64,000 nt of DNA from contig SOET01000005.1 of assembly GCA_021646465.1 (NCBI GenBank), forward strand, positions 62,001 through 126,000. Direction: 5' to 3'. The notes beneath the pieces were generated by a model. That model saw nothing but the letters and a program-made list of their open reading frames with translations. It was not told the DNA's origin and searched no databases. Source of the DNA: Candidatus Kuenenia hertensis. Its GTDB lineage: Bacteria > Planctomycetota > Brocadiia > Brocadiales > Brocadiaceae. Positions within the stretch are counted from its first letter, which is position 1, and each line of letters starts with the position of its first letter. The position numbers were made by a program, and so were the translations under genes. Below, in pieces: positions 1,876 to 52,928 of the stretch.

Positions 1876-1881
1876 ATCAAT

Positions 1882-5710: not shown

Positions 5711-5722
5711 CAAACCATCTCC

Positions 5723-19714: not shown

Positions 19715-19816
19715 CTCGAAAAAGATTAGCAGTTGATTAAATGAGCCCAAACTTTTATACTGTTGCTTCTACTGCGGTTTCAGTCAGAAACCTGAACCTG
19801 CGAAAGTACCGCTTTT

Positions 19817-32203: not shown

Positions 32204-32290
32204 CTTAAAAAGTTTTATTTAAATAATCCTCTGCAAAGAGAGCTATTTCTAAATGTAGTAAATATTTCTAAGATAAATCATTAATTTGAG

Positions 32291-32986
32291 CTACGTAGAA
32301 ATTTCTCCCCATCCTGCTGCAACGGGATTCTCCAATGCTACTTGTTCTCCCATCTTTGATGTCGATACCTTCGATTGGCTCTTGGAAAGCCATGTGAATA
32401 AATCCTTAAATTTGCCTTCTTTCAATCTAATTGGCGGTCTATTTGGTGGTGCAATTTGCCTTAATAAATCAGTGTTCGCCGTCTCCACTGCCACTGCGAA
32501 AAACATAAATTTCTTGTTGTTTTCCCCATCATGAACTTTTCTTGTGACTTCATTCCATTTTAAATCACCTGGCACCATATCCGTAGGTTCACCATCGGTT
32601 ATCATAAAAATCCATGGTCTATAGTAATCTATACCCTTGTTTTTATATTGCTGTTTCCTTTGCTCTATAAGCTCAATAGCTTTGAGAATAGCATCTCCCA
32701 TAGGCGTATATCCGTCGGCAGAAAGAACCGGTGGTTCAAATTCTTCGATAGAAGAAAAATCATGTGTTACGGCCACACTACCACCAAAGGTAATAACAGA
32801 GATATCCACGCGCTTAGATGCCAGATCATCCTTGGATACATCTTCTTTAAATATTGTCAAACCATTTGTTAATGCGTTGATTTTTCCACCCTCAGACATC
32901 GAACCAGATGTGTCGAGCAATAATACCGTTGCACAATGTGGTTGGTGTGGATTCGCAATTTCAATACGATCTTCTAACTTAGCCAT
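32291..32986 (-). CDS. terY: TerY-like VWA-domain protein
   Basis: The 231-residue protein is essentially one VWA domain: MIDAS LLLDTSGSMSEGGKI (Asp-x-Ser-x-Ser complete), ADGYTPMGDAI (the Thr of the site) and MITDGEPTDM (the Asp). This is the TerY layout. A GGAGGG ten bases before the ATG supports the start. It heads the VWA, VWA-PP2C, kinase order on the minus strand. VWA proteins of this class bind metal ions and protein partners and are possible kinase substrates or scaffolds. Confidence 0.88.
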   Translation of the reverse strand: MAKLEDRIEIANPHQPHCATVLLLDTSGSMSEGGKINALTNGLTIFKEDVSKDDLASKRVDISVITFGGSVAVTHDFSSIEEFEPPVLSADGYTPMGDAILKAIELIEQRKQQYKNKGIDYYRPWIFMITDGEPTDMVPGDLKWNEVTRKVHDGENNKKFMFFAVAVETANTDLLRQIAPPNRPPIRLKEGKFKDLFTWLSKSQSKVSTSKMGEQVALENPVAAGWGEIST

Positions 32987-36712: not shown

Positions 36713-36832
36713 CTTTTTTCCGGCAGGCAATGCCATGCCCTACATGCTAATCTGTGAAAATCTGTGTAATCTGTGGATTATTTTTATTCCTCTTTGTAAT
36801 TGCTAAATCATGGATGTTTCATTTTTTGATTT
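36713..36832. repeat. 118-bp direct repeat, copy 2 (matches 26036-26153)
   Basis: It is nearly identical to copy 1: CTTTTTTCCGGCAGGCAATGCC, then ATCTGTGAAAATCTGTGTAA, then ATCATGGATGTTTCATTTTT. The right end overlaps the last codons of the DUF4384 gene at 36819, so the repeat contributes its stop region. Confidence 0.85.
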
Positions 36833-38765
36833 TAAACGGATACATATTGATATCGTAATGTAACTTGTTATTTGTCCCTGAAGTTTCATGATAGTAGTGT
36901 GAAGATGCATTTGGCGTTGGTTCAAGACCTCTACTTCCTCTTGTCCTGAGAATTTCAAATAAACCTTGCATTTCCATTTCATCCACGCTTCTGTACATCT
37001 CATGCTTGTTTTCATGAATGGCGCTTTGCATGGTAATTGTACGTGGAAATTTTTCGTGAATGATTGATGAGATATCGGCAGGGGTGATTTCTTTGTCCAC
37101 CGCAATCGCAAGGAGATAATCTATGCCTGCCGGCTCGTTTGTTTTTAATGCGTATTCGATGCTTGCCCGGGGTGACGGCACGGAATATTCCTTTCCCGCA
37201 CGAACAAAGTTGTCCATCTCATACGCATTCGGAAATAACTGGAGATACCTGTGATTGCTCATAATATCATATATGTAAACATAACAGTCTTTTTTTATCC
37301 GGAAAAAGACTCTCGCTGACTCTCCTATCCGGTATTCCTTTTTTTCCGTCCATATATCAATCGCCTTGCTTCTGTTTGTATTATTATCAGCGGCGCCCAT
37401 GCCAAGCAGCAACCAAACCGGGCTTAATTTCCTGACACTCTTTGCGGCAATAACCATCCCTGGTATTGTGTCGTTTCTCATGCCGGTACTTAGCATTCGT
37501 ACATGAATTTTGTATGTTTGCTCACTTTCTCTATAACCGAATGCCCCGACAATCAATGCCTCTATTCCATTGCCAGCCAGTTCACCCAGGGAATTTTCCG
37601 CATCAACGCTTAATGTCTCTCTCAAGGCAATTTCCTTCAGTACGGAAGAAAGTAATTGCCGCTCCTGAAGTATTATGCCTTTCTCATGTCCTTTTTCCAT
37701 AATTTTTTCCATCAGACAAGATACGATGTCCATCCCGATCTGTGATGAATCGTTTTTTCCCAAATCCACAAATGGGCTTACCGCAATGTTTTTTCTCGTC
37801 AGGAGGTCGCATTTTGTTACTATTTCATCCGCTATTGATTCCATTGCGTAGCCGGAGTGTAAATTCATTATTTTATCCATCAGTATCTGTGAAGGGGTTT
37901 GTTTATATGCATCTTCCAGCGCTTCCATGGCAGCATCATACAAACCTGATGCTGCATGTTTTTCCGCCTTCACTATTAAATCTTTTGCCAATTTATCAGT
38001 AATTTGTTCAACACGCTCTTTTGCCCTGTATTGGATGCCCTGCGCTTCCTCAGAAATCCCTAAATGAGTCTCCTGCAATATTCTGAGCAGTGTGCTATAT
38101 TTGGATAGCGCATTTTGCAGTTCGCCGCACCGGTCATAGGAAAGGGCGAGATAATACAGTATCTTTACATCTTCCGGTTTTTTTATGGCAAGGGTGTTAA
38201 AACGGTTAATTGCCTCCCGGCAGTTGTTTTCTTTTAAAAAGGTAAGGCCCGTCTCTGATTCAGGGTCTATTCCCAGTATCGTATTTTTAATACGTTTATA
38301 CTCTTCTACCGGATACCGTACCAGCAGATTGACATTATAAAGGACTCTGTTATTCTCAACGTTTTCTTCAGCAAACGTATCTATTTCTTTTACCCCATGG
38401 GCAATTTCAGACGATAAAAGCCTTACCTTTTCACGAATATAGCTTTCCGCATCTGAAATTCCCGGACTATAAGCAATGCCTTCCTCGTGGCGCAGTTTTT
38501 CATAATCAATGGATATCTTCGACTGAATCATCTTTGCTATTTTGCCCACGGCGTTTTGAAAGGCATCGTCTTCACCTGTTTCTCTGGATAATGCGCGGGT
38601 TTTCCTGCCGATAAAGTACAGGTAGTTTTCGTCTTCTTCGGGAACTTTGTTTATCCAATCGGGAAAATGGCGGGACGTTGGTTGTTTCACGACATATTTT
38701 TCCGTAGTACAGCCAATAAGGAGAATGAAAGGGATGATGAACAGCATAGGAAAAGGTTTATTCAT
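36819..38765 (-). CDS. LPP20/FlgT-type lipoprotein with TPR and DUF4384 domains
   Basis: The ATG at 38765 has AAAGGAT upstream and opens a lipoprotein signal ending in FILLIGC. The mature protein has an LPP20-like section (DDAFQNAVGKIAKMIQSKISIDY, residues 50-170), TPR-like helices (DVKILYYLALSYDRCGELQNALSKYSTLLRI), a CsgG/FlgO-like section (RKNIAVSPFVDLGKNDSSQIG) and a C-terminal DUF4384 domain (YRIGESARVFFRIKKDCYVYIYDI, LQLFPNAYEMDNFVRAG). DUF4384 is often linked to caspase-like domains, which supports a partnership with the caspase-like lipoprotein at 20.3-23.7 kb. The last residues come from a direct repeat. Confidence 0.82.
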   Translation of the reverse strand: MNKPFPMLFIIPFILLIGCTTEKYVVKQPTSRHFPDWINKVPEEDENYLYFIGRKTRALSRETGEDDAFQNAVGKIAKMIQSKISIDYEKLRHEEGIAYSPGISDAESYIREKVRLLSSEIAHGVKEIDTFAEENVENNRVLYNVNLLVRYPVEEYKRIKNTILGIDPESETGLTFLKENNCREAINRFNTLAIKKPEDVKILYYLALSYDRCGELQNALSKYSTLLRILQETHLGISEEAQGIQYRAKERVEQITDKLAKDLIVKAEKHAASGLYDAAMEALEDAYKQTPSQILMDKIMNLHSGYAMESIADEIVTKCDLLTRKNIAVSPFVDLGKNDSSQIGMDIVSCLMEKIMEKGHEKGIILQERQLLSSVLKEIALRETLSVDAENSLGELAGNGIEALIVGAFGYRESEQTYKIHVRMLSTGMRNDTIPGMVIAAKSVRKLSPVWLLLGMGAADNNTNRSKAIDIWTEKKEYRIGESARVFFRIKKDCYVYIYDIMSNHRYLQLFPNAYEMDNFVRAGKEYSVPSPRASIEYALKTNEPAGIDYLLAIAVDKEITPADISSIIHEKFPRTITMQSAIHENKHEMYRSVDEMEMQGLFEILRTRGSRGLEPTPNASSHYYHETSGTNNKLHYDINMYPFKIKK

Positions 38766-38888
38766 GGCATATCCTTTTTCTGAATTTTTGTATGACATCA
38801 TAACAATTTTATTATCTGAAAAAATTAATCCGTATATTCGTAGGGCAAACCATTCAGGTTTGCCTTCATGGTATAGTATCACATCACA

Positions 38889-39167: not shown

Positions 39168-39635
39168 TTATTTCATTTCTATTTCAAAGGAACCGAGAAA
39201 TTTGTATTTCCGATAGTCATCTACCAGCCCTTTTCGTACCGGATTATGGAAAATATATTGGGCAATTTTTATTGTATCTTCCGCTTTTCTCAGGACATGT
39301 TCGTAATAATTTATCTGCCAGAGCGGGTTTCCATTTTCTTTTTTATAATAAAAACCAGTATGTTTTTTGTATGAGGAAAGAAACTTTCTCATGTCGGAAC
39401 AATCGTCATTGCCTTCAATTAAAAGATGAAGGTGGTCTGGCATAAAACAATATGCCCATACTTTAAAACCAAAAGAGACCGATTTCCCTCTTAAAATAAT
39501 GACAAGCCATTCTACAAGTTTCTCATCGTTAAATAGATTTTTTTTATCATGTGTACATATTGTAATGAAATAACGATAGCATCCCTTATATTCGAAGTGT
39601 TTTAAGCGTATACGTTTTTTATAGTCAGACGTCAT
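39168..39635 (-). CDS. REP-associated tyrosine transposase (RAYT, Y1/HUH family)
   Basis: From ATG 39635 the protein has 155 residues. It begins MTSDYKKRIRLKHFEYKGCY, then YFITICTHDKK, the HUH metal motif MPDHLHLLI, and the tyrosine helix region (KKHTGFYYKKENGNPLW). QYIFHNPVRKGLV follows near the end, typical of the Y1_Tnp family. RAYTs cut single-stranded DNA at REP hairpins and are thought to spread REPINs. The gene is single-copy in this window and looks intact. It is the likely agent for the roughly 30 REP copies found between 19 and 49.3 kb. Confidence 0.9.
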   Translation of the reverse strand: MTSDYKKRIRLKHFEYKGCYRYFITICTHDKKNLFNDEKLVEWLVIILRGKSVSFGFKVWAYCFMPDHLHLLIEGNDDCSDMRKFLSSYKKHTGFYYKKENGNPLWQINYYEHVLRKAEDTIKIAQYIFHNPVRKGLVDDYRKYKFLGSFEIEMK

Positions 39636-39651
39636 TTCATTAATGTTTTTG

Positions 39652-39768
39652 TAGGGCAAGGCATTCAGCCTTGCTCCCCTGGAAACGTTCGGAAATTTGT
39701 TAATAAAAACGAGATTATATACTCCTCTCAAAACACCATGAAGCAAACCTAAAGGGTTTGCCCTACGA
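39652..39768. repeat. Type-A and type-B REPs on the 5' side of the RAYT gene
   Basis: GTAGGGCAAGGCATTCAGCC... (39652-39680) starts 16 bp upstream of the RAYT ATG. A type-B palindrome (GCAAACCTAAAGGGTTTGCC) is at 39742-39768. They face each other across about 60 bp, a wide REPIN-like pair. Confidence 0.8.
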
Positions 39769-39770
39769 AT

Positions 39771-39962
39771 GGGAGCATTCCCAAATTTTTGCAAAATTCC
39801 AAAAGAGATCCTGACTCGTTCCAAAGTTCCAGCTTTGGAACGTAATTGCTTTAGAAGCTTCGCTTCTCATAACAGAAAGCATGAGCTTCCTTCACAATTG
39901 TGTTCCCAAGCAGGAACTTGGAAACAAGAATGATGGTTTTGCAAAAATTTGGGAATGCTCCC
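39771..39962. repeat. MITE-like element with perfect 26-bp terminal inverted repeats
   Basis: The left end (39771-39796) starts GGGAGCATTCCC and continues AAATTTTTGCAAAA. The right end (39937-39962) is its exact reverse complement. The 192-bp unit contains inner palindromes (TTCCAAAGTTCCAGCTTTGGAA, simplified; and GAAGCTTCGCTTC). CCTACGAAT flanks both sides as a 9-bp direct repeat (39762-39770 and 39962-39970), consistent with a target duplication. Confidence 0.85.
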
Positions 39963-40081: not shown

Positions 40082-41272
40082 TTAATGTTTGACTAATTCT
40101 ATTTTGTTCCGGTTATATTTTATTATTTTCAAATCAAGGTCATTGCACCTTGCGGCCAATTCTTCCGCGGTAAAAATGGTCTTAATATCAAAGATAGCCG
40201 GATTACCTGCTTGCCATTCCCTTTGAAATACATGAACGACGCCTCTTAAGGCGCAAAGTTTATTTTTTAAGGTTATATATTCCGAATAACCGATATTGTT
40301 TATTTCCAGTTCCACGGTTCTTGTTTGTGAAGGCCCAAGGTATAACGGAATATCCCATACAAGCTCCTGAGCCAGGTTTTTGCCGCACAATTTTATTGCC
40401 TTGATCCCCGCATCCCAGCCGGTAATGCTTGTATATACTTTTTCCGTATTGTTTATATCAATGATCTTTCCCGTTTCCGCAATTATAGCCTTAACGGAAG
40501 CATATGCCTTGCAGGAAACCATGCCTGATTCATAAAGAATTTCCGGCACTGGTAATTCCCTTGTATAGACTTTTCCCGTGATAACAACATCTGCTCCCAC
40601 GTTGCGTGCAAGCTTTCCGGCAACGTCACTATTCCCTTTCCATACATGTTCCATCAGTTCTTCTGCACGCCTGTTTTGTTTTATTTGTTCCGCATCGACA
40701 CAATGAAAACCGCATTTAACCATGCATTCTATCAGCTCGGTTTCAAGTACGGAATAGGGAGGATCGGTATCAAGATTTTTCTCGTCAATTAATACAAGGA
40801 AACGTGGATTCCCCATCAGGTCTATAATAATTTTCAGGGCGTCATGCTCATCTTTTTCTATATACCCATTTACCACTTCAGCATTTATTTTTACTGAATA
40901 AAGATTTTCATCGCGCACACATTCTTCGTTTATTTCCCAGTTGCGTATATAACCCTGAGACCTTGCCAGAATGATGTCTTTCAGTATGATGAATAAATCC
41001 ACCTGTGTCTCAGACTCGATGGAAATACCGGTCCCTTTTTCCACCGCCCTTCGATAAGCATCCCGGAGCGCCTCGTCTCTTGCACCCGCCTTGTCATCAT
41101 TTATAATCGCGCCAACACCTTCAACGGTAACAAGCTGTGTTTTACCTGCAATCGCATTATTTTGATTAGCAATCGAGGCGGTAAAACTCATTAATGCAAT
41201 AAGAAACATAATAAGTGGCTGTCTTTTAAAGCATACAATTGCATATATTACGTTATCAGGTTTTTTATTCAT
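40082..41272 (-). CDS. FlgT/LPP20-like exported protein (396 aa)
   Basis: A signal peptide (PLIMFLIALMSFTASIANQNNAIAG) precedes a FlgT N-terminal-like domain: TVEGVGAIINDDKAGARDEALRDAYRRAVEKGTGI with a conserved alternating Ala/Arg helix. The middle part (VLIDEKN...ELIECMVKCGFHCVDAEQIK, VGADVVITGKVYTRE) resembles the FlgT/CsgG-type middle domain. FlgT family proteins in other bacteria shape the flagellar H-ring; no flagellar genes occur here, so an envelope-scaffold role is more likely. It is one of three related proteins (36.8, 40.1 and 41.4 kb) in the cluster. Confidence 0.75.
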   Translation of the reverse strand: MNKKPDNVIYAIVCFKRQPLIMFLIALMSFTASIANQNNAIAGKTQLVTVEGVGAIINDDKAGARDEALRDAYRRAVEKGTGISIESETQVDLFIILKDIILARSQGYIRNWEINEECVRDENLYSVKINAEVVNGYIEKDEHDALKIIIDLMGNPRFLVLIDEKNLDTDPPYSVLETELIECMVKCGFHCVDAEQIKQNRRAEELMEHVWKGNSDVAGKLARNVGADVVITGKVYTRELPVPEILYESGMVSCKAYASVKAIIAETGKIIDINNTEKVYTSITGWDAGIKAIKLCGKNLAQELVWDIPLYLGPSQTRTVELEINNIGYSEYITLKNKLCALRGVVHVFQREWQAGNPAIFDIKTIFTAEELAARCNDLDLKIIKYNRNKIELVKH

Positions 41273-41436: not shown

Positions 41437-42357
41437 CTAATCAATTAATATCGTTAATGATTTATCTATTGTAAGTATATCGGTGTTAGCCATCATTTCG
41501 CTTATCTTCAGGGCATCTTCATTTGCTATAATCAAATCAGTGTTATTTCCTTCCCGGATGTTTCCGGCTGTAATTTTCAATGGATTGTTTCCCGTGTCTT
41601 CCAGCTTTATGCTTAACAAATCCTTTGTACTGACACGATACACAGGATGAACAGGGCCGCAGATTTTTTCTCCGTTTTCGTTGTATATATTTACCAATAT
41701 TGACGGTGTAAGTTTCAGCCCCCTTGCATCAATAACAATACCGGAATATGAAATTTTTGGAAAAGATAGGGCTTTACTATCAGCATTTTTTTTCGTTTCC
41801 TTCAATAGCGTATGGATTAATTTGCCGACAGGCGCACGCATTGTTACCTCATATACCCCTTCATTCCAATTTTCATCAATAACCTCCGCATCTTTCAGTG
41901 TGCCGTTTATTTGAGACTGTATTACCTCGCTTAACTCTGAAATATCTGAGATTATTGTTTTGGAATCAAGCTGTATTCCTCGTATCATTTCGAGCAAATT
42001 CCTCTGTGCATCGACAATTGCAACACGTCGCGCAAGTACTTTTTTCTGAGCGGGGTTTTCCGCATTTGATATCCCCATGCCTTTTGCAACTACGTATTTC
42101 GTTTCCCAGTTAATTTGCCTGGTTTTGCCTTCCTTTTCAGACAGTTTCAGTTGACCGCTTTCATGGTACATGTATTTTTTTTCGTCAGCATTCGCCATGG
42201 GACCGGCAATAAACACAATCGTATTTAACATTATCCCTATGCAGAAAAAACTATTCTTTACCATATTCATACTATATTTCCCCATTTTTAAAGGCAAACA
42301 AAGAAGATGATTCGTGCAATCCGGCGCTCTTTTTAAAAAATATTGACGGGCATTCAT
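41437..42357 (-). CDS. LPP20-family exported protein
   Basis: Two starts compete. ATG 42357 overlaps the upstream gene (ATGA), while ATG 42270 has GGGGA upstream and opens a good signal peptide (VKNSFFCIGIMLNTIVFIAGPMANA). The mature part has the LPP20 pattern: VAKGMGISNAENPAQKKVLARRVAIVDAQRNLLEMIRGIQLDSKT and a NEGVYEVTMRAPV strand. LPP20 proteins were first known as outer-membrane lipoproteins in Helicobacter; their function is unclear. Here there is no lipobox cysteine. Likely part of the same envelope module as the FlgT-like gene downstream. Confidence 0.78.
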   Translation of the reverse strand: MNARQYFLKRAPDCTNHLLCLPLKMGKYSMNMVKNSFFCIGIMLNTIVFIAGPMANADEKKYMYHESGQLKLSEKEGKTRQINWETKYVVAKGMGISNAENPAQKKVLARRVAIVDAQRNLLEMIRGIQLDSKTIISDISELSEVIQSQINGTLKDAEVIDENWNEGVYEVTMRAPVGKLIHTLLKETKKNADSKALSFPKISYSGIVIDARGLKLTPSILVNIYNENGEKICGPVHPVYRVSTKDLLSIKLEDTGNNPLKITAGNIREGNNTDLIIANEDALKISEMMANTDILTIDKSLTILID

Positions 42358-42789: not shown

Positions 42790-42815
42790 CAAGGCTAAAG
42801 GCCTTGCCCTACGTT
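42790..42815. repeat. Type-A REP
   Basis: GCAAGGCTAAAGGCCTTGCC followed by CTACG, overlapping the last codons of the 118-residue membrane-anchored protein (stop at 42795), so the REP has entered the gene end. Confidence 0.8.
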
Positions 42816-43151
42816 TTTTTCTCTGTTTGTTCCGGCTAAGTTGTGCGGCGGGAGTTTTTTGTTAACATTTTCCGTATCTTTGTTATACACCTCTTTCATT
42901 ACCTCCCCTATTAACACCTTGAATGTTTCAATGTCGTCTTTCAGTCCTTTAAGGTCGTTTAATGGGTCTGTATCGTTATAAAACTCCTTGCCGGTTTTTG
43001 ACGTCTCAGCGCCTTTGGTATTTTTTCCTTTTAATATTTTGAGTACTGGAATTGAAAAATATTTTCCGTTTTGCTTATATAGCTGGCTGGTAATAAAGCC
43101 TAAACTATACACTGCTATGAAAAATGTTATTAATAACAATTTATTTTTCAT
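42795..43151 (-). CDS. Membrane-anchored small protein (118 aa), end altered by a REP
   Basis: One N-terminal membrane helix (KLLLITFFIAVYSLGFITSQLY) precedes a charged periplasmic segment (DPLNDLKGLKDDIETFKVLIGEVMKEVY, a possible coiled coil). The last residues (REKNVGQGL) are encoded by REP DNA at 42790-42815, so the original end has probably been replaced. No family recognised. It stands between the TonB-position gene and the 87-residue membrane protein. Confidence 0.65.
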   Translation of the reverse strand: MKNKLLLITFFIAVYSLGFITSQLYKQNGKYFSIPVLKILKGKNTKGAETSKTGKEFYNDTDPLNDLKGLKDDIETFKVLIGEVMKEVYNKDTENVNKKLPPHNLAGTNREKNVGQGL

Positions 43152-43266
43152 CCCGGTATTTTCTTTAAAAAAAATGCAATTACTCCTGGCATCAAACTAT
43201 TACGTTACACTCTTTAACTCTCTGTATTTATTAATCATTCCGATTCCAAAAAATGGTGCAATAATT

Positions 43267-44163
43267 TTATAAAACAATTTCTTTTAATTCCTGATCTTCA
43301 ACCTTTCGGAACGTTCCGTTTTTAAGATATACATCTTCCACCAAGAGTATCCAATAGCCCTGAGGTGTTTTTACAATACGTGCATTTGTATAGCTAACAT
43401 CTGAAATGTTCGCCGATATGTATTTTATTGCCTGTGTCTCTTTCCAGTGAAAATATCCGGCAGAGCGTCCCAGTGCGAGAGACACCTTTAAGTCTTCTTC
43501 CAATACATTCTGTTTTAATAATTCTTTTTTCAGCAAGAAGAGAAGATCTCTTTCCAATTCAATGGTTCTGTTTGAATTATTAAGGTAAAAACTCTCTATT
43601 TCACCCTTTGTGGCGAGTTTTTCAAACCGAAGGGTATCTCCATTGCAGACAAGCAGATATCCGGGTTTTGAATGTGGATAAGCAACGATTTTAAAATCAA
43701 AGTAGGTTATAATTTCCCTGATGGTTTCGGTTGTTATATCCGGGGGGAATTTTACCCTCATGTTTGTTACCAATGTACCTTCTTTTGGCAGGGACTTTTT
43801 GTATATTTCATATTCTTCTTTGCTTAAATATTTTTCCTGCTTTTTGTGCTGATCCGGTATTTCTATGATCTCTTTTTCTGGCTTATTTTCTTCTGTTGCG
43901 TGTTTGGCAGAATCATTGTTTTTGTTGTTTGTCATTTTTTCTTCTGTATTATCGGGCTTGAAATTAAGATCCTGCTTTTCTACACTTTTTTTATCCTGAG
44001 CAATATCGGATAAAAGATTTGCCGGTAAAAGAGAGGGGGGTTTTGTATCAGCAATATTCTGTACCTTTTTAGGTTTAATCTTATTGCTATGCAACATAAA
44101 AGCAGACAACAAAAGGAGATTGAAGAACAATGATACAAAAAAATATTTGACTAGTCTTTTCAT
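43267..44163 (-). CDS. Putative TonB-position envelope protein (298 aa)
   Basis: The gene follows exbD with a 4-bp overlap, where tonB or tolA usually lies. The protein has an N-terminal membrane helix (YFFVSLFFNLLLLSAFML), a long charged spacer (residues 40-130, many Lys/Glu/Asn), and a C-terminal globular part (residues 135-298). The spacer lacks the Pro-Glu/Pro-Lys repeats of TonB, and no YP motif is seen at the end, so homology is unproven. The layout (helix, extended spacer, folded end) suggests it transmits ExbB/ExbD energy across the periplasm. Confidence 0.65.
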   Translation of the reverse strand: MKRLVKYFFVSLFFNLLLLSAFMLHSNKIKPKKVQNIADTKPPSLLPANLLSDIAQDKKSVEKQDLNFKPDNTEEKMTNNKNNDSAKHATEENKPEKEIIEIPDQHKKQEKYLSKEEYEIYKKSLPKEGTLVTNMRVKFPPDITTETIREIITYFDFKIVAYPHSKPGYLLVCNGDTLRFEKLATKGEIESFYLNNSNRTIELERDLLFLLKKELLKQNVLEEDLKVSLALGRSAGYFHWKETQAIKYISANISDVSYTNARIVKTPQGYWILLVEDVYLKNGTFRKVEDQELKEIVL

Positions 44164-44573
44164 CTGTTTTTCCCTGTAGATTTAAAATAAACTCTTGAAA
44201 ATTGTGCATTTCTTACGGTTTCCAGGACATGCAAGGCGCTTTCCAGAGGTACTTCTTTATCTCCGTTGATTATGACAACAATATTGTTTTGTGCGTTTTT
44301 TTGTTTCATGAGCCGTTCCACAAGTTCTGTATGTGAAGCGACCGGTTCCTTGTCTAAAAAGAGTTTTTTTTCTTTTGTCAATGATATGGTGACAAATTTG
44401 TCCGGATTCATATGCTGTGATGTGCGTAATTCCGGGTTGTCAACCTTGACCAGGTCAAGAAATACCATCTTTGTCATGCCGATAATACAAAAGATCACCA
44501 CAATGAATATAATATCAAGCAAAGCTATCATATTGAATTCCGGTGTGTGGCTGTGTCTGCTTAAGCTATTCAT
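44160..44573 (-). CDS. ExbD/TolR-family protein
   Basis: From ATG 44573 the protein has 137 residues. The N-terminal section FNMIALLDIIFIVVIFCIIGM carries the single transmembrane helix with the conserved proton-path Asp, here in LLDIIF. The periplasmic domain follows (ITISL-type strand, VVIINGDKEVPLESALHVLETVRNAQFSRVYF). It overlaps the TonB-position gene and is downstream of exbB by about 210 bp containing REPs. ExbD subunits use the proton gradient to drive outer-membrane processes. Length is usual. Confidence 0.87.
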   Translation of the reverse strand: MNSLSRHSHTPEFNMIALLDIIFIVVIFCIIGMTKMVFLDLVKVDNPELRTSQHMNPDKFVTISLTKEKKLFLDKEPVASHTELVERLMKQKNAQNNIVVIINGDKEVPLESALHVLETVRNAQFSRVYFKSTGKNR

Positions 44574-44665
44574 ATAAAGAATCCTGTTGTGAAGGGATAA
44601 AAGTAAAAATGTGTGGCACGGTTTAACCGTACATCCGCATAACAATTTTCCATTTTGAAAATAGT

Positions 44666-44790
44666 CGTAGGGCAAACCATTCAGGTTTGCCTCATGGCCT
44701 CCAGATCTTAATTTAGCATCTCATTTTTATTGGCAAATTTCTGCGCTTTTCCAGAGGGGCAGAGCAAGGCTAAATGCCTTGCCCTACGCC
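44666..44790. repeat. Type-B and type-A REPs between exbB-like and exbD-like genes
   Basis: GTAGGGCAAACCATTCAGGT (44666) and GCAAGGCTAAATGCCTTGCC (44763) lie between the two genes. The second touches the last codons of the ExbB-like gene. The pair separates genes that normally form one operon, so a promoter or processing change may have resulted. Confidence 0.75.
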
Positions 44791-45398
44791 CTACGTTTCA
44801 AACTTGCCAGTCTGAACTGTTTTATACCGGATTCAATTCTGGAAAGTGTTGTATCAGCCATTCCGCCAAAGATGTGTGCGGCGGTAATATTTGCTATTGC
44901 AACAACCAATCCAAGAAAAGTAGTTGCCATAGCCTCGGATATTCCTCCTGCTATATACGACATGTCCGCTGTTTTGCTCATCGTTCCGAACGCTTTGATC
45001 AATCCGGTAATGGTACCCAACAAACCCAATGAAGGCGCAATAACGGCGCATGCGTTCAATATGCGTAAATAGCTGTGCGATTGGCCAAACTCCTTATCAA
45101 CTGCTATTGCAGCCACGGTATTTATTTCTTTTTCATCAGGTATGTCCGGCAGGAAATGTCCCAAAACCCTTACTACGATATCCTTTGATTTGTGTGCAAA
45201 CTGATATGCCTCTTTCAGATTTCCGCTTTTAATACAGTCAGAGATTTTTATAACGTGACCGGGATTTTTTCTTTTCCACAGGAATAACCAATAAAAAGAC
45301 CTTTCAATAATTACACCGACGGATAATATCCACAGAAAAAGTAATAATATCCCGATCAGTCCGCTATTTTTTAATACGATGTTAATGATCTCAGACAT
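44784..45398 (-). CDS. ExbB/TolQ/MotA-family proton channel protein
   Basis: The ATG at 45398 is preceded by GGAG seven bases upstream; a GTG further up lies in that ribosome site. The 204-residue protein has the three expected membrane helices: SGLIGILLLFLWILSVGVII, IAPSLGLLGTITGLIKAF with the conserved Gly-rich motif, and EAMATTFLGLVVAIANITA with the channel Thr. This matches ExbB/TolQ. It pairs with the ExbD-like protein downstream. C-terminal residues are encoded near a REP (44763-44790). Confidence 0.88.
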   Translation of the reverse strand: MSEIINIVLKNSGLIGILLLFLWILSVGVIIERSFYWLFLWKRKNPGHVIKISDCIKSGNLKEAYQFAHKSKDIVVRVLGHFLPDIPDEKEINTVAAIAVDKEFGQSHSYLRILNACAVIAPSLGLLGTITGLIKAFGTMSKTADMSYIAGGISEAMATTFLGLVVAIANITAAHIFGGMADTTLSRIESGIKQFRLASLKRRA

Positions 45399-45429
45399 TA
45401 ATTTCTCCACAGGTAAAAAAGTAAATGTA

Positions 45430-45772: not shown

Positions 45773-46144
45773 TTAATCGTGACGTCTGCTAATCATATCG
45801 AACATACCTTTTTTGCCGTAGACCAATGAACACCTATAGCAATTATTGCAGGTAAATTCACAGAGCCCGAAAGTCCTGGATGCGATGTATTTTTGTATAG
45901 CATTCATTTTTTCTGTGGAAAGGGAATGATTCATTATTACCATATTTCCGGATGGAGCAATTCCATTTGCATTCATTCCTTCATCGCCTTCCGGTGTATT
46001 CTGAATATTTCGGGCATAGTGTTGTTGCCTGACAACATCTGAAGGGGGTCTTTCGTAATCCAGTAAATTGGCGCTGTCAAAGGAATCAATTCCCTGATTT
46101 GCTGAAAATGTATATCCCAAAAAGATCAATAACAGGATAATCAT
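45773..46144 (-). CDS. Secreted small protein with LCEFxC...CYxC motif (short form)
   Basis: The ATG at 46144 follows AAAGGGGGAAA. A signal peptide (IILLLIFLGYTFSANQG) is followed by a low-complexity middle section (DYERPPSDVVRQQHYARN) and the C-terminal motif FGLCEFTCNNCYRCSLVYGKKG. The four-cysteine motif is shared with the neighbouring 46187-46981 protein but no other similarity is seen. It may bind a metal or heme or form disulphides in the periplasm. Family unknown; the pair looks co-transcribed. Confidence 0.7.
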   Translation of the reverse strand: MIILLLIFLGYTFSANQGIDSFDSANLLDYERPPSDVVRQQHYARNIQNTPEGDEGMNANGIAPSGNMVIMNHSLSTEKMNAIQKYIASRTFGLCEFTCNNCYRCSLVYGKKGMFDMISRRHD

Positions 46145-46186
46145 TATTTTTCCCCCTTTTTTCAGATCACAACGAAGCACAATAAA

Positions 46187-46981
46187 TTATTTTTTGACTT
46201 CCCTGCCATAAAGCAGATTGCATACATAGCAACTTGATTTGCCGCATGAGAATTCACAAAGGCTATATGTAATGAATTTCATGTCGTTTAAGAGAGATTT
46301 TGCCTCCCGGAAATTGACATTGTATGCTATGCTCTTTAAATTGTTTCTTGCCCTGAGTGCTTTTTCTGCATGGACCTCTTTTAATGTTTTCTCATCCTTC
46401 TTATCAGTTAAAAAGGGGTTTGAAAGATTGTTTATTCCTTCTTTTGTTTCCACTTCCAGCAATAAACCGGAAATTCTGGCCCGGACCTCTGCAAGATCGG
46501 AACGTAAGAAATTCAATTTATTTTCCAACTCATTCTTTCTTCTCCGGTACGTCTCTTCGAATGATATCCATGTGTTTCCGGCAGCCTCTTTGCTTGTTGA
46601 TTGAAGTACATTGTTAATTCTGGGATATTCATTTCTGACAATTTTCGGCAATAACTCCAGTTCCTTTTCAACCAATGCAATCTCATTCAGCAGCTCTTTT
46701 TCTTTCGACTGATTGTATGTGAGCTGCGCCTTTGCGATGTAAATATCACTGCTGCTTTTCATCACATTCTTATAGTTATTCTGTGCAGTAGCGGCAATTT
46801 CTTTAAAATGCGAATAATCTATCTGTTTTTTTGCGCCATCGTCTTTAGGGTCCGGTTGGTTATCATGGGTATTTGCAACCTGATTCTTTTCCTGTGCTAT
46901 AACCTCGAATGTATAATCTCCGCCAAAGACTGCAAAACAAGGAAATGCAACGATCACCAATATAAAAATAAGCTGTTTCAT
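46187..46981 (-). CDS. Exported coiled-coil protein with LCEFxC...CYxC motif (long form)
   Basis: From ATG 46981 the 264-residue protein has a signal peptide (KQLIFILVIVAFPCFAVFG) and a long helical coiled-coil section (residues 60-220, e.g. NEIALVEKELELLPKIV and RRKNELENKLNFLRSDLAEV). The C-terminus holds TYSLCEFSCGKSSCYVCNLLYG, the same cysteine motif as its neighbour. The coiled coil may span periplasmic distance and the cysteine end may anchor or sense. It sits 42 bp before the short form and belongs to a four-gene minus-strand unit with the coiled-coil and TPR proteins upstream. Confidence 0.72.
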   Translation of the reverse strand: MKQLIFILVIVAFPCFAVFGGDYTFEVIAQEKNQVANTHDNQPDPKDDGAKKQIDYSHFKEIAATAQNNYKNVMKSSSDIYIAKAQLTYNQSKEKELLNEIALVEKELELLPKIVRNEYPRINNVLQSTSKEAAGNTWISFEETYRRRKNELENKLNFLRSDLAEVRARISGLLLEVETKEGINNLSNPFLTDKKDEKTLKEVHAEKALRARNNLKSIAYNVNFREAKSLLNDMKFITYSLCEFSCGKSSCYVCNLLYGREVKK

Positions 46982-47015
46982 GTTTATCACCTTTCTCCTT
47001 AACGTGATTTTATAA

Positions 47016-48023
47016 TTAATAATGGCTTTTTTCAGCCTGTTTGGTTATCCAGTCTTCAAACGATTCATCGGTGGTTGTAACAAACATTTCCAGAGAAGTT
47101 TCATCCGGGGAAGAGGCGAGAAAATTAGTAAGTTCGGAGGTAACCTCATCCATAATTCCGGAGAAACTATTTACCATGTTCCATACATCCTGTACTTGTT
47201 CGCCCCATTGTACTGACGTACCATCCTCAGATATCCCCCTTGATGCCACGGTAATATTCAAAAGCAAATTGCAGACTTCTGCTGCAGAGGAAAATTTCTC
47301 CCTTTCAACATTAAGCTTATCAAGCAATTGTCCTACATGATTTCCGAGTCTGCTATAGTATTTCCCCTGTTTTTCAATCATTACAAGTGCTCGCTTCATA
47401 CCTTCGAGTTGTCCTGGAATTTTCTGGTTATTGTAATTAAGCACATCGAGCTGTTTCTTTAACTGATACAATTCATCTTTTAATTCATCGGTAGGTTCTT
47501 CCTGATATTTCCTTGCCAACTCGCTGGCCTTTTTGTTTAATTCGATAATTTTATTGGAATTTAATTGTGAGCGTGAGGATATCTCCTGTAATTTGCTTTC
47601 AAGACGCTTCTCAGCATTGCCAAATTCCCTGTTAATTGCAGTAAATGCATCAGAAATTCTGTCTTTTTCCTTAATGACGCCTACCATTTTTCTTTCTATG
47701 GCAACAATGTTATCACTAAAAACACGATGAAGTTTACTCAGCGTTTCATCATTACGATTTTCTTTGACTGCGGTAAGTGAATTTTTAATATCTCCGATTG
47801 CCTGTTTAAATGATTCTCTCAGCGGTTTCGCTGTGTTTAATGAATTGCTAATGTCTTTTTTGGGTTTTTCTATATCGATATTGAACTCGCTTAAATCCGG
47901 AAGAAACCCTGTATTTGCCCGGTGTGAAGGGTTACTGTCCTGAACGTCAGCCCACACGTCCGCAATTCCGGCATAGAAGAAGGAAGTTAAAAATATCGTT
48001 AAGAGGCATATAAATTTCTTCAT
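47016..48023 (-). CDS. Exported coiled-coil protein (335 aa), unknown
   Basis: A signal peptide (KKFICLLTIFLTSFFYAGIADVWA) leads a protein that is almost entirely helical: long heptad stretches (residues 90-240, e.g. RLESKLQEISSRSQLNSNKIIELNKKASEL and QLKKQLDVLNYNNQKI). The last 100 residues look globular (VWNMVNSFSGIMDEVTSEL). No family is recognised. The gene is 34 bp upstream of the long Cys-motif gene and downstream of the TPR lipoprotein, on the same strand. Confidence 0.7.
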   Translation of the reverse strand: MKKFICLLTIFLTSFFYAGIADVWADVQDSNPSHRANTGFLPDLSEFNIDIEKPKKDISNSLNTAKPLRESFKQAIGDIKNSLTAVKENRNDETLSKLHRVFSDNIVAIERKMVGVIKEKDRISDAFTAINREFGNAEKRLESKLQEISSRSQLNSNKIIELNKKASELARKYQEEPTDELKDELYQLKKQLDVLNYNNQKIPGQLEGMKRALVMIEKQGKYYSRLGNHVGQLLDKLNVEREKFSSAAEVCNLLLNITVASRGISEDGTSVQWGEQVQDVWNMVNSFSGIMDEVTSELTNFLASSPDETSLEMFVTTTDESFEDWITKQAEKSHY

Positions 48024-48062: not shown

Positions 48063-48776
48063 TTAAAAATTTGCGTTGTTTTTTCCTTTGTCTTCTGACG
48101 ATATTTTTCCGGAGATTAAGGGAGTATTTTCGCTGTTTCCGGTAGCATATCGCAGTACTTCCAACAGGTAATTATCTTCAGAGGTAACGGGAAGGGAGTG
48201 TTTCTTTAAAAAACGTATATAATTTTCATAATCGTGTATTGCGGATTCATAATCTTCCCTGGCAATATACACAATAGCCCTGTTGTGGTAGATATATCCG
48301 GAAACATTACTTTCACCATCGAGTTCAACAGCAGTACTAAAATCGTTTATGGCATCTGAATATCTTTCCTCTATTGTGTTAATTCTTCCCCGAAGGTTTA
48401 AGGCATAAACATTCAGCGGATCCTGTTTTATAGCCTTGTTCACATCTTTAAATGCTTCCTTATAGTTATGCATCTTAAAATAAATTTCCGCACGGTAATA
48501 ATATGCCAGTGATGAATTGCCAGGCTTTGCTTTAATGGCTTCGGTAAAAGAATGCAGCGCCTTTTCATATTCCTTTATGCGCCATTCGGCGATACCTTTA
48601 TTGAGAAGTCCATAATAATCGTTTGAATCCTTTAATACTTTCTCATAGGTGGTTATTGCCTCACTATATCTTCCGCTCTGCATTAGTTGATTGCCGCGGC
48701 TAACTGTATTTGTTGCAGCACAGCCAGCAGTAACAACGCATCCGAAAATAACGGCCAATAAAAGGGTTTTACTCAT
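48063..48776 (-). CDS. TPR-repeat lipoprotein (237 aa)
   Basis: ATG 48776 follows AGGAGGT. The signal peptide ends in VVTAGC, a lipobox, so the protein should be lipid-anchored. At least five TPR units follow (GRYSEAITTYEKVLKDSNDYYG, EYEKALHSFTEAIKAKPGNS, NYKEAFKDVNKAIKQDPLN, RYSDAINDFSTAVELDGES, DYESAIHDYENYIRF). TPR lipoproteins commonly scaffold outer-membrane assembly. It is the most upstream gene of the four-gene set; the 383-bp repeat copy B lies 77 bp upstream of its start. Confidence 0.85.
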   Translation of the reverse strand: MSKTLLLAVIFGCVVTAGCAATNTVSRGNQLMQSGRYSEAITTYEKVLKDSNDYYGLLNKGIAEWRIKEYEKALHSFTEAIKAKPGNSSLAYYYRAEIYFKMHNYKEAFKDVNKAIKQDPLNVYALNLRGRINTIEERYSDAINDFSTAVELDGESNVSGYIYHNRAIVYIAREDYESAIHDYENYIRFLKKHSLPVTSEDNYLLEVLRYATGNSENTPLISGKISSEDKGKNNANF

Positions 48777-48852
48777 TTTTCTACCTCCTGTATAACAAAG
48801 TGAATAAAATTTATGCGAAATAACAATCAGGCAACTTCGAATCTTTTTTCTG

Positions 48853-49235
48853 TCTGTTTTATTTATCAGGCACACTATGCATTATGGTGCAGGAAAAATA
48901 TTTTTTTATCGTACTCATGCTTTATGGCAAATATTGAGATAAAAGCGATTCTACCGTCATAAAGATTTGCACAATTACGTTAACAAGTTAACAAGTGATT
49001 GAAACGAGCAAGGCTGAAGGCCTTGCCCTACTTCTTTATTCCGGCCGTTTTATATACTTTTATACTTGCGAAAAGATTTGTGAGTTTTTATAGTAACTGC
49101 AATTATATCAATGAGGTTGTCTCGTATACTTTGTGTATCAGCGTCTGCTTGGTTTTTGGTGCATGGAAAATACACCCTGCTTGAACGATTGATTTAAAAA
49201 CGTAGGGCAAAGCCTTCAGCCTTGCTCACAGACCT
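48853..49235. repeat. 383-bp long repeat, copy B (inverted relative to 19332-19714)
   Basis: Starts TCTGTTTTATTTATCAGGC and ends GTAGGGCAAAGCCTTCAGCC, TTGCTCACAGACCT. Copy A is the reverse complement with roughly 10% differences by eye and the same length. It lies between the TPR lipoprotein gene and the sigma-factor operon, marking the right limit of the REP-rich block; no REP copies are seen to the right of it. Confidence 0.88.
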
Positions 49236-49346
49236 GTAAGATTAAGAGTGCCTCATTCTGGTAAAAACAATATTTGATTATTTAACATTTTTTGCACCAA
49301 TTATTCTTTCAATACTGATAATTAATAGTAAAGGCCATTAATTAAA

Positions 49347-50006
49347 ATGACTAAAGAAGATCTTGAATTAATCGCATTGAGGGATACTGCGAAGAAGGGC
49401 GGTGAAGAGGGAAAGAAGTCCACAGAAAAATTTTTTGAAATTATCGAGCCTTTAATACAAATGTATGTAACCTTAACGGTTAAGTATTACCCAAGCCACT
49501 TAACACGTAATGATTGTGTACATGAAATGCGATATATTGCATTTGATGTGTTTTTAAAAGAGTGGAATCCTTGCATTAGTTCTTTCAGGACTTGTTTTTC
49601 AGGTAGAAAACAAAGAATTTATGATGCCCTTAAAGAACATCACAGCATTTTTCACAATGAAAATAAATTAATCTCAATTGATGAACCAATACATGATAAA
49701 AATGGTACGGAAGAAAGCATTTTAGATACAGAACCGGACAAAAAAACAAAACCACCTGATATTCAAGCGACTAATTTTGAATTGCAGGAGCACGTTAATA
49801 CATTGTTTAATTCTGCCTTAGCAAAACTAAGCGGGGATGAAAAGGAGGTTTTTCTGGCACACACTTTTGGAGAATTAAAGTTAACTGAAATAGCCGACAA
49901 AATGGGTAAACCATATAATACTGTAAAATCTTATTATGAAAGGGCAAAACAAAAATTGAAGAGCAATAATAAATTAAAAAAATTGTTCGAGGAAGGCGAT
50001 AAATAA
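49347..50006 (+). CDS. Sigma-70-like (ECF-type) RNA polymerase sigma factor
   Basis: The 219-residue protein has a region-2-like part (NDCVHEMRYIAFDVFLKEWNPCISSFRTCFSGRKQRIYD) and a clear region 4 (ALAKLSGDEKEVFLAHTFGELKLTEIADKMGKPYNTVKSYYERAKQKLK), the helix-turn-helix that reads the -35 element. Spacing fits an extracytoplasmic-function factor. It is followed after 1 bp by a gene with two zinc-finger segments typical of anti-sigma factors, so it is probably held inactive until a signal appears. No target promoter can be named from this window. Confidence 0.82.
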   Translation: MTKEDLELIALRDTAKKGGEEGKKSTEKFFEIIEPLIQMYVTLTVKYYPSHLTRNDCVHEMRYIAFDVFLKEWNPCISSFRTCFSGRKQRIYDALKEHHSIFHNENKLISIDEPIHDKNGTEESILDTEPDKKTKPPDIQATNFELQEHVNTLFNSALAKLSGDEKEVFLAHTFGELKLTEIADKMGKPYNTVKSYYERAKQKLKSNNKLKKLFEEGDK

Positions 50007-50007
50007 A

Positions 50008-50793
50008 ATGAGTACTAATTGCTTAAGCGAAGAACAACTATTTACTTATTTGAAAAGTCCTTACGATTGTAATGAAAATCAGCTAATTGAAGAACATTTG
50101 ATGTTTTGCAATAAATGCAGGGATGAACTTAATATACTTGATACATTAATGACGGGCTTGAGGATTTATGGCAAACATGCCACACAATTAGTAAAGGAAG
50201 GAAAATCGTTACATATAAAAAATGAGGTTATGCAAAGATATATTAATGAGACTTGTGATGAAGATGAGAACAAAGAGATCGTGACACACATTGCCGGTTG
50301 CAGTAATTGCTTGAATGACATATTCGCTATAAAAAAGTTGCTCTATCAAATTAGAAATGAACCGGCTATTACAAAAAAAAGTTTTCTTATCGCCCAGTTT
50401 GCGCTTCATTATCCCAAAAGGATCCCGGTTGTTGAACAGGAAGCTAAAGATTTATTTAAAAACGCGGCATGGAAAGAAATTGCTCTATTTGAAATTGTTA
50501 AGCCATTTAGTTTTGCATTTACAGGAGACAGTGACGAATCAGCCAGACATAATGAAGACTATCGAAAACTGGAAACTGACAAATTTATTATTGAAATGAT
50601 CCAGCCATTGGCAAAAGAACCAACGACTACAATTGGCATAGTCGCAAAAGAGAAATTAGAACAGGCAAAAGTAACAATCTGTACTGAGAAAGAAATTTCA
50701 CAAACAGTTACGTTTGATAATAACAGGACCATTATTAATAAAGAAGGCATGCAAATAGAAACAATACGGTATATCAAAGTGGAAAAAATATGA
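50008..50793 (+). CDS. Putative zinc-finger anti-sigma factor (two HC2-like fingers)
   Basis: Residues 1-50 contain IEEHLMFCNKCRDEL, the H-x3-C-x2-C core of zinc-binding anti-sigma domains. A second copy is in residues 70-100: EIVTHIAGCSNCLNDI. Two fingers in one protein is a doubled anti-sigma domain. The C-terminal 140 residues (KDLFKNAAWKEIALFEIVKPFSF onwards) look like beta strands with no membrane helix. It starts 1 bp after the sigma gene stop and overlaps the 96-residue gene by ATGA, so the three are coupled. Confidence 0.78.
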   Translation: MSTNCLSEEQLFTYLKSPYDCNENQLIEEHLMFCNKCRDELNILDTLMTGLRIYGKHATQLVKEGKSLHIKNEVMQRYINETCDEDENKEIVTHIAGCSNCLNDIFAIKKLLYQIRNEPAITKKSFLIAQFALHYPKRIPVVEQEAKDLFKNAAWKEIALFEIVKPFSFAFTGDSDESARHNEDYRKLETDKFIIEMIQPLAKEPTTTIGIVAKEKLEQAKVTICTEKEISQTVTFDNNRTIINKEGMQIETIRYIKVEKI

Positions 50794-51080
50794 TCGAGCC
50801 TGCACCACATGTATTGAATACATTAAAAAAGGCAAGAAAAGAGGGTTTACCCATCGCAGAATGGCGTAAAAATGCATTATTTCTTTTTGAATATCTTTGC
50901 GATACGGACCAGCAAACCGGTATGCCGTCATATGATGCAGTAAATTTCCTGTCAAAAGAAATCGCATTAGAATGTGTAGCGGAACTCGATTGTTATTTCA
51001 ACACTTTTGGATTCACCAATCAAAGGGAAACCGACCAATGGCATGAATTGTCACGACTACTTAGGAAGATCTATGAGTGA
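50790..51080 (+). CDS. Small soluble protein of the sigma operon (96 aa)
   Basis: It begins at an ATG overlapping the anti-sigma stop (ATGA) and reads MIEPAPHVLNTLKKARKEGL, then an acidic patch (CDTDQQTGMPSYDAVNFLSKEIALECVAELD) and ends in a basic helix (RLLRKIYE). There is no signal peptide and no recognised family. It overlaps the next gene at GTGA. Its tight coupling on both sides suggests a partner in controlling the anti-sigma or the membrane protease-like protein. Confidence 0.7.
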   Translation: MIEPAPHVLNTLKKARKEGLPIAEWRKNALFLFEYLCDTDQQTGMPSYDAVNFLSKEIALECVAELDCYFNTFGFTNQRETDQWHELSRLLRKIYE

Positions 51081-52153
51081 AAGTTAATGCAATAATGGTC
51101 GAAGGAAATGATCAGAATATGAGAGGGACGATACATAGCATCATTATTGCTCCCACAAATAGTGATAACAGGGTAATACCTCATAAATATTTCAATTATC
51201 TTGAAGAAACGATACAGAGAATTCTTACGTCAAAAAATAACAAGAACTCAGGATTTACTATTGATACAAGGTTGAAAAACGAAGATATTTCGTGTAACGA
51301 CCTGAGTTCTATGGGCCTTTCTATTGCCATAGGTATTTATATATGTTTGGATAATCAGGAAAATTTATGGGAAAGCAAATGGCAGGAGTGGTGTTTCACC
51401 GGACAAATTGGAGATATAGAAGGGAATATTGTAAAAATAGGAAATGGTATAGAAAAGGTTAAAACAGTAATAGATGATGGAATAATTCGTTTTGCTGTCT
51501 TTCCGGGTGACAACAAACCGGAGATAGAAAATTGGTTAAAAAAAGAAAAATATGCGTATTACGAACAATCCGGCGGGGAAGAAAATATTTTGAAAAAAAC
51601 GCCTTCATTTTTAGGAAGGCTGTGGCAGTGTTTTTTTAAAAAATCCTTCTATGCAAAGATTGCATTACTGTTTTGGATAATATCAATAGTGTATGTTCCA
51701 ATCAGATTTTACTTTTGGGATTCTCTCTTAAGCCTTGAAAATAATACTAACTGCGTATGTTTACAATTACCAGTAAAGGATGTCAATAAAGCTAAAAGTA
51801 TATTGATAAAAAAAGGATTTCCCGAAAGATTATTAAACGTAAATATTTTAACATCATTGACAAAAGCACAGGCAGGAACAAAAGCATTATTCGGTTATAA
51901 AAATCACGAACTTGAACTGGAAATTGTTTCATCATCAGATGTAACAATGATACTGACTTTCATCTCTACCGCTTATATTGGCATATTTATCTCTGTTATT
52001 TTTGCCTTTACTTTAGCGCACAAAGGTCCTAAAAGCAAATTCATATCAAAAAAATATCCTTACACGTCTATACATCTGGCAAAGCTGAATAAAGAGATTG
52101 TTTTCGTTGGGAATATTAAAGAGATTGAAAAAATTGTTCAAAACAAAATGTAG
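51077..52153 (+). CDS. Membrane protein with an N-terminal Lon-protease-like (S16/S5D2) domain
   Basis: The start is GTG 51077, overlapping the preceding TGA. Residues 1-150 resemble the Lon proteolytic fold: CNDLSSMGLSIAIGIYICL has a Ser (about 78) where Lon has its catalytic DGPSAG Ser, and FTGQIGDIEGNIVKIGNGIEKVKTV mirrors the strand-helix that carries the catalytic Lys (candidates 127 or 129). RFAVFPGDNK then matches the IP-x-NK region. Two membrane helices follow (ALLFWIISIVYVPIRFYFW and LTFISTAYIGIFISVIFAF) flanking a soluble loop. I infer a membrane-bound protease or pseudo-protease that acts on the anti-sigma factor. Lon-like domains in RadA/ComM are non-proteolytic, so catalysis is uncertain. 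Confidence 0.7.
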   Translation: MKVNAIMVEGNDQNMRGTIHSIIIAPTNSDNRVIPHKYFNYLEETIQRILTSKNNKNSGFTIDTRLKNEDISCNDLSSMGLSIAIGIYICLDNQENLWESKWQEWCFTGQIGDIEGNIVKIGNGIEKVKTVIDDGIIRFAVFPGDNKPEIENWLKKEKYAYYEQSGGEENILKKTPSFLGRLWQCFFKKSFYAKIALLFWIISIVYVPIRFYFWDSLLSLENNTNCVCLQLPVKDVNKAKSILIKKGFPERLLNVNILTSLTKAQAGTKALFGYKNHELELEIVSSSDVTMILTFISTAYIGIFISVIFAFTLAHKGPKSKFISKKYPYTSIHLAKLNKEIVFVGNIKEIEKIVQNKM

Positions 52154-52577: not shown

Positions 52578-52928
52578 TGGAGGCGGCGGGAATTGAACCC
52601 GCGTCCCTGGACGCTTCAATATAGGCTTCTACGTATATAGTCTATTTTTTAATTTCGCCGTCAAAACCCCAATAGACAGGGTTTTTAAGGACTAGCGCAG
52701 CTAAGAAGTTCATTCAGACCCCGCTAACGCAAAAGGACTAAACTAACCCGCTGTTCTTCGTTTCATTAATCTCGCAGGTAAAACTAATGAAACGTGGCTG
52801 TCAATTAAGCAGCCATTGCCATTGGTTCTTCGGCATTTAATTGTTTTGCCAGGTTTTTAATGAGGCCGCCTGACAACCTCAATACGCAACCTATACCTCA
52901 TACTATCCGGTCGAATCCTTTCGCCCCC
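52578..52928 (-). ncRNA. ssrA: tmRNA (ssrA)
   Basis: The 5' end GGGGGCGAAAGG (52928 downward) pairs with the 3' acceptor strand CGCCTCC next to the T-arm (GCGGGTTCAATTCCCGC). CCA is not encoded beyond the discriminator A at 52578. The tag open frame reads AKQLNAEEPMAMAA and ends in TAA at 52805-52807, giving the usual small hydrophobic end. The pseudoknot-rich middle is visible as several short complements. tmRNA frees stalled ribosomes and labels the unfinished protein for proteolysis. The 3' end faces the accessory half of the window. Confidence 0.95.

Follow-up and report, generated by a model that had tools for sequence, protein, structure and literature searches.

We describe an operon of four genes in a 64-kb stretch of a Candidatus Kuenenia hertensis contig (hereafter, the window), which encodes a sigma factor, a zinc-finger anti-sigma factor, a conserved small protein and a Lon-like membrane protein. 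Our preferred reading, to which we assign a probability of roughly 55%, is that the Lon-like protein is a membrane-anchored, ATPase-less sensor-protease of the Lon family, that it cuts the soluble anti-sigma factor, and that the sigma factor so freed induces its own operon together with an envelope machine encoded divergently from it. The gene content, the relationship to Lon with conserved catalytic residues, the predicted topology, a conserved promoter-like element and the co-occurrence of the two operons all come directly from computation, and are set out first.

The operon and its Lon-like protein

The four genes lie on the plus strand. The first encodes a sigma-70 family, extracytoplasmic function (ECF)-like sigma factor of 219 amino acids (aa) (49347-50006), with matches to TIGR02937 (E=1.6e-17), spanning residues 27-206 and thus sigma-70 family regions 2 to 4, and to Sigma70_r4_2 (PF08281, E=2.5e-12). 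It is followed by the soluble anti-sigma factor of 261 aa (50008-50793), which matches zf-HC2 (PF13490) twice (E=2.4e-7), a conserved 96-aa protein that belongs to no known family (50790-51080), and the 358-aa Lon-like protein (51077-52153, GTG start), assigned from a four-copy profile, a fold match and hydropathy. A single nucleotide (nt) separates the sigma and anti-sigma genes, and the two remaining junctions are 4-nt overlaps; both the list of open reading frames (ORFs) and the sequence itself bear out the coordinates and the tight coupling (1-4 bp) of the original prediction, which had been made from the sequence alone. All four ORFs can be taken as real genes, since the gene set, with homologous sigma factors, recurs in Ca. 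Scalindua.

The Lon-like protein is present in three of the 62 genomes of the order, namely the window's own, Candidatus Scalindua sp. SI037_bin72 and Ca. Scalindua rubra. Both Ca. Scalindua genomes carry the same four-gene set, S. rubra in two copies (A and B) plus a 3' remnant, so that each of them shows the stable association with sigma and anti-sigma genes that the original prediction expected. Identity to the window copies in the four-copy alignments is 31-38% for the Lon-like protein, 40-48% for the anti-sigma factor and 45-52% for the 96-aa protein; the sigma genes are diverged yet homologous (S. rubra directly, E=1.7e-7; SI037_bin72 via a profile; full ORFs in both cases). The single Lon-like sequence found nothing when searched against genome contigs, and an alignment query found the two Ca. 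Scalindua genomes only. A search of 392 genomes of the phylum brought up housekeeping Lon but no additional copy, and viral contigs gave no relatives. One match in a further genome (G050; E 0.005, broken frame) was dropped, as it was absent when searched with the profile, and we did not take the weak phylum hits of the anti-sigma profile for relatives because they cover the zinc-finger part and not the C-terminal domain. In the second S. rubra copy of the operon (locus L012, 4778-9950) the sigma region looks broken, with ORFs of 91 and 336 aa, and the 3' remnant, from a third Lon-like gene, lies downstream.

Taken alone, the Lon-like ORF has no match in Pfam or NCBIfam (none at E<=1), the PDB or PADLOC. 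A profile of the four copies, however, matched housekeeping Lon in three genomes of the family when run against the phylum genomes (E 2e-4 to 9e-4), and in the PDB it reached Lon structures 8dvh, 4ypm and 5e7s, weakly (E 0.07-0.5) but in the correct register, the TG...G...IGG..EK segment lining up. A profile-profile comparison against five Lon domains from Brocadiales gave a score of 19.5, as against a maximum of 8.6 for column shuffles (n=30), and placed Ser78 and Lys127 onto the Lon Ser/Lys dyad. These two residues and Thr108 are invariant in all four aligned copies, including one only 31% identical, and we take them to be the equivalents of Ser679, Thr704 and Lys722 of E. coli Lon. The AlphaFold model has an overall pLDDT of 59, with residues 81-160 at 71-87; in a Foldseek search of this low-confidence model the first rank went to the Lon proteolytic domain 6wys (probability 0.99, E 0.023, TM 0.51 by target length).

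From these sequence and model comparisons we consider it highly probable that the 358-aa protein is homologous to Lon, and likely that it is proteolytically active. The Lon-like domain of the original prediction is therefore supported, by the four-copy profile, the profile-profile register and the first Foldseek match, although the profile search proposed there for 51077-52153 against Lon succeeds only with the four-copy profile and gives no match with the single protein. The prediction had also named Ser78 and Lys127 or Lys129 as the residues to alter; the first two are invariant, but Lys129 is unconserved among the four copies. Pfam matched no AAA+ module in the 358-aa chain, unlike the ATP-dependent LonA and LonB, and neither Pfam, NCBIfam nor PADLOC matched a CARF or SAVED domain in it, in agreement with the absence of such a sensor noted earlier.

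Hydropathy predicts two membrane helices in 4/4 copies, as had been anticipated. The Lon-like domain occupies about residues 1-160 and is followed by a first helix at about 195-213, a loop of 75-80 residues, a second helix at about 291-309 and a short tail. Because the two helices and the distribution of positive charges, which favors an N-in/C-in arrangement, place both ends inside, the catalytic domain and tail are predicted to be cytosolic and the loop to be periplasmic.

The window anti-sigma factor, by contrast with the membrane-bound anti-sigma factors discussed below, has no predicted membrane helix (top 19-residue hydropathy 0.96, and none in its model). Its two H-x3-C-x2-C fingers (H30-C34-C37 and H94-C98-C101) have all six ligands invariant in the alignment. 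The model (pLDDT 78) consists of helical finger domains, a helical segment, a low-confidence linker at about 169-179 and a well-predicted C-terminal beta-sandwich (183-260); a Foldseek search returned generic beta-sandwich matches only. The 96-aa protein has no Pfam, NCBIfam or PADLOC match, and is a candidate adaptor or co-inhibitor.

A shared promoter element and the divergent envelope operon

All three loci have, between their genes, the element TGCACCA-N16-TGAT[A/T]A, in which TGCACCA is -35-like and TGATAA -10-like. It lies upstream of the sigma gene in all three genomes: in the window the exact element (49293-49321, plus strand), a predicted sigma promoter, ends 25 nt before the start codon, and the distance is 53 nt in SI037_bin72 and 38 nt in S. 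rubra copy A, where there is one mismatch. A second element, exact in all three genomes, precedes the TPR-lipoprotein gene of the divergent operon (48863-48891, minus strand; start 86 nt downstream). A third lies within that operon, 80 nt upstream of a gene for a 118-aa protein (43232-43260, minus strand); it is exact in the window and in S. rubra (L012 17499) and weak, with two mismatches, in SI037_bin72 (L004 11693). The exact element TGCACCA-N16-TGATAA has four sites in the 64-kb window, versus 0 in 100 shuffles; in an order-wide pattern search the three carrier genomes have 4, 4 and 5 sites, and the other 59 genomes of the order 21 together. Since the element precedes both operons in three genomes and is enriched in the carriers, we consider it very probable that the sigma factor controls both of them, and we infer that TGCACCA-N16-TGATAA is the sequence it recognizes.

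Further occurrences of the element were seen elsewhere. An inverted copy, 91% identical, of the divergent promoter region (48832-49235) is found at 19332-19735, with one exact and one near element and no evident gene behind. In S. rubra an extra element stands 307 nt upstream of a gene whose PEGA-domain product, judged by eye, is similar to the protein encoded beside Lon-like copy A, and another (L012 957-985) stands 46 nt upstream of a multihaem cytochrome-like gene, which suggests a wider regulon.

The divergent operon, on the minus strand, begins with the TPR lipoprotein (48063-48776; TPR families), whose start we place at the ATG of MSKTLLLAVIFGCVVTAGC, the ORF being listed to 48875, and which has orthologues in L004 and L012. 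Two secreted coiled-coil proteins follow, one of 335 aa (47016-48023) that occurs in 3/62 genomes and one (46187-46990; orthologues in L004 and L012) ending in CEFSCGKSSCYVCNLLYG, and then a small protein with a Cys-rich C-terminal tail, CEFTCNNCYRCSLVYG (45773-46180). Next come a MotA/TolQ/ExbB proton-channel protein (44784-45410; PF01618, E=2.7e-23), an ExbD/TolR protein (44160-44675; PF02472, E=4.8e-22) and a single-span periplasmic protein (43267-44163; orthologues in L004 and L012) that has no informative Pfam match and is TonB/TolA-like by position only. Beyond the internal promoter element are the 118-aa single-span membrane protein (42795-43151), an exported protein LPP20-like by eye (41437-42357; orthologue in L004, no Pfam match), an exported protein with a FlgT_N-like domain (40082-41272; PF16548, E=8e-6, just below the cut-off) and a lipoprotein with TPR and DUF4384 (36819-38882; PF14326, E=3e-19). 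Judged by these families, the operon is an energized (ExbB/ExbD) envelope machine.

Most of its genes are found in unchanged order in both Ca. Scalindua genomes, and the 335-aa coiled-coil protein and the Lon-like protein occur in the identical 3/62 genomes, a coincidence with a chance of 2.6e-5 if the two were independent. The similar Cys-rich tails of the two neighboring secreted proteins (CEFSCGKSSCYVCNLLYG and CEFTCNNCYRCSLVYG; 45773-46990) are also kept in Ca. Scalindua. A Y1 (IS200-like) transposase gene (39168-39824) sits within the envelope operon, and the Lon-like gene of SI037_bin72 has a similar-looking gene next to it (L004 2239-2739).

How the sigma factor might be released

Based on this analysis we can outline how the system may work. 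At rest, the sigma factor would be held by the soluble zinc-finger anti-sigma factor, perhaps together with the 96-aa protein. The periplasmic loop of the Lon-like protein would read an envelope signal and activate the Lon domain; this cytosolic Ser-Lys domain would then cut the anti-sigma factor, most likely in the flexible linker near 169-179, possibly with the 96-aa protein as adaptor. The freed sigma factor would transcribe TGCACCA-N16-TGATAA promoters, and hence its own operon and the divergent ExbB/ExbD envelope operon. We regard proteolytic release as the most likely mechanism, with the anti-sigma factor as the presumed substrate and the periplasm as the presumed site of the signal.

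Several points weigh against this proposal. Proteolysis, including cleavage of the anti-sigma factor, is our deduction. The model of the Lon-like protein is weak overall, in both its confidence and its Foldseek E-value, despite the better values for residues 81-160. The family comprises only four sequences from three genomes, which makes the invariance of Ser78, Thr108 and Lys127 thin. S. rubra copy B retains the Ser and Lys residues while its sigma gene appears broken, so that conservation of the dyad may not reflect function, and copy A has other genes inserted between the anti-sigma gene and the small protein/Lon-like pair. Finally, a small number of transfers may have brought the locus to the three carriers, in which case the co-occurrence counts few independent events.

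The same sigma factor and regulon could instead be controlled by sequestration without any cutting, the Lon-like domain docking the anti-sigma factor, directly or via the 96-aa protein, and a signal shifting the balance of partners. The weak overall similarity to Lon would sit comfortably with such a scheme, and a small extra protein coupled between the anti-sigma factor and the membrane protein fits partner switching. However, a pure docking domain would not be expected to keep Ser78, Thr108 and Lys127 invariant even at 31% identity, and we consider sequestration unlikely, if worth keeping in mind.

Alternatively, the Lon-like protein may be an output of the system, a co-transcribed membrane protease for quality control of the envelope machine, while the anti-sigma factor senses a signal of its own, for example redox state via its zinc fingers, as RsrA and ChrR do. 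Its fingers do weakly match the RsrA/ChrR models, and the operon sits behind a promoter predicted to be autoregulated. Yet the Lon-like gene is translationally coupled with the anti-sigma and small-protein genes, and the catalytic domain is predicted to face the cytosol rather than the envelope, so that this arrangement seems improbable to us.

A mobile island and known sigma-release systems

The operon lies close to ssrA (window 52578-52928, minus strand). A 26-bp att repeat, identical to the 3' end of ssrA, marks the right end of an island at 52578-52603 (plus strand), and its other copy lies at 18583-18608 of the full contig (C42); the two repeats, at contig positions 18583 and 114578, are perfect, giving an island span of 18583-114603. 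In two congeners the alignment runs rightwards from the ssrA 3' end and not leftwards, and each congener stretch contains a single repeat. The genes of the left flank are syntenic in genome G002, and a tyrosine integrase gene stands beside the left repeat. Because of the repeats, the break in the congener alignment, the single congener repeat, the left-flank synteny and the integrase, we read the four-gene operon as the last cargo of a 96-kb island integrated at ssrA.

The island also carries type III CRISPR genes (window 514-6997), among them Cas10/Cmr2 with a GGDD motif (4109-5713), RAMP proteins and a Card1-like CARF nuclease (5723-6997), in a locus about 43 kb from the operon; the operon itself contains no cas genes. 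It is very improbable that the operon is an arm of this defense set in which second messengers made by Cas10 trigger the Lon domain, directly or via a partner, as in CalpL: the shared island and the precedents of CalpL/T/S (PMC11417357) and Craspase (PMC10028731) speak for it, but the distance, the lack of a CARF or SAVED match in the Lon-like protein, a predicted regulon consisting of an envelope operon, the cas genes of the window having no exact element nearby, and the absence of PADLOC matches for the small and Lon-like proteins speak against it. Nothing in the Lon-like protein resembles a sensor of cyclic oligoadenylates. Caspase-like (Peptidase_C14) genes occur near or within the locus in all three genomes (window 20306-23662, L004 396-1991 and L011 13349-14446), and the island further contains, at 28113-32986, adjacent genes for vWA, PP2C/vWA-like (by eye) and protein kinase-like (PADLOC) proteins.

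More tentatively, with somewhat less than even confidence, we suggest that the whole constitutes a sigma-release circuit whose layout is opposite to that of regulated intramembrane proteolysis, in which an ATPase-less Lon-family transmembrane sensor cuts a soluble anti-sigma factor in the cytosol and drives a co-inherited ExbB/ExbD machine on a mobile island. The original prediction had the Lon-like identity, the helices, the lack of CARF and SAVED and the stable linkage right, and had overlooked the promoter element, the ssrA island and the co-occurring ExbBD operon. With this element, both the regulon and the activity of the sigma factor become testable in an E. coli reporter, and the system draws attention to a mobile island of anammox bacteria that encodes an uncharacterized ExbBD envelope machine. 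In the open-access literature we found nothing relevant on a membrane Lon/anti-sigma pair.

In the RseA/DegS/RseP and RsiW-type systems the anti-sigma factor is a membrane protein that is first cut outside or within the membrane. What is proposed here resembles them in that an envelope signal would reach an ECF sigma factor through proteolysis of its anti-sigma factor. It differs in that the membrane component is the protease, whereas the anti-sigma factor is soluble and without a transmembrane helix, and in that the cut would be cytosolic. From the housekeeping LonA of the same organism, with which it shares the Ser-Lys dyad and the TG...G...IGG..EK segment, the Lon-like protein differs in lacking the AAA+ and N domains and in having membrane helices. 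YlbL/DdcP of Bacillus subtilis is likewise a membrane-anchored, ATPase-less Lon-domain protease (PMC6051672), but it has a single anchor, a PDZ domain, a Lon domain outside the cell and a division-inhibitor target, and no sigma system.

The closest parallel is to CalpL/CalpT/CalpS, in which a type III CRISPR Lon-SAVED protease cuts an anti-sigma factor and releases an ECF sigma factor (PMC11417357). In both cases an ATPase-less Lon-family protein is encoded beside anti-sigma and sigma genes, and the parallel drawn in the original prediction holds for the proposed mechanism, a Lon domain acting on an anti-sigma factor. It does not extend to membership, since SAVED and CARF are missing; here there are also two membrane helices, a zinc-finger anti-sigma factor rather than CalpT, an additional protein of 96 aa and an envelope regulon, and the operon is free of cas genes. 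In the Craspase system (Csx29/Csx30/CASP-sigma, type III-E), also described from Ca. Scalindua, cleavage of an inhibitor frees an ECF-like sigma factor for which sites are predicted within the locus itself (PMC10028731), much as we propose; its protease, however, is a guide-RNA-gated, caspase-like CHAT enzyme, and the folds are unrelated. Known proteolytic sigma release thus relies either on a membrane anti-sigma factor cut outside or within the membrane or on a cytosolic, CRISPR-gated protease. If our reading is correct, a third layout would join them, with a Lon-family protease that spans the membrane and a soluble anti-sigma factor as its partner, and CalpL-style Lon domains would be coupled to other sensors as well.

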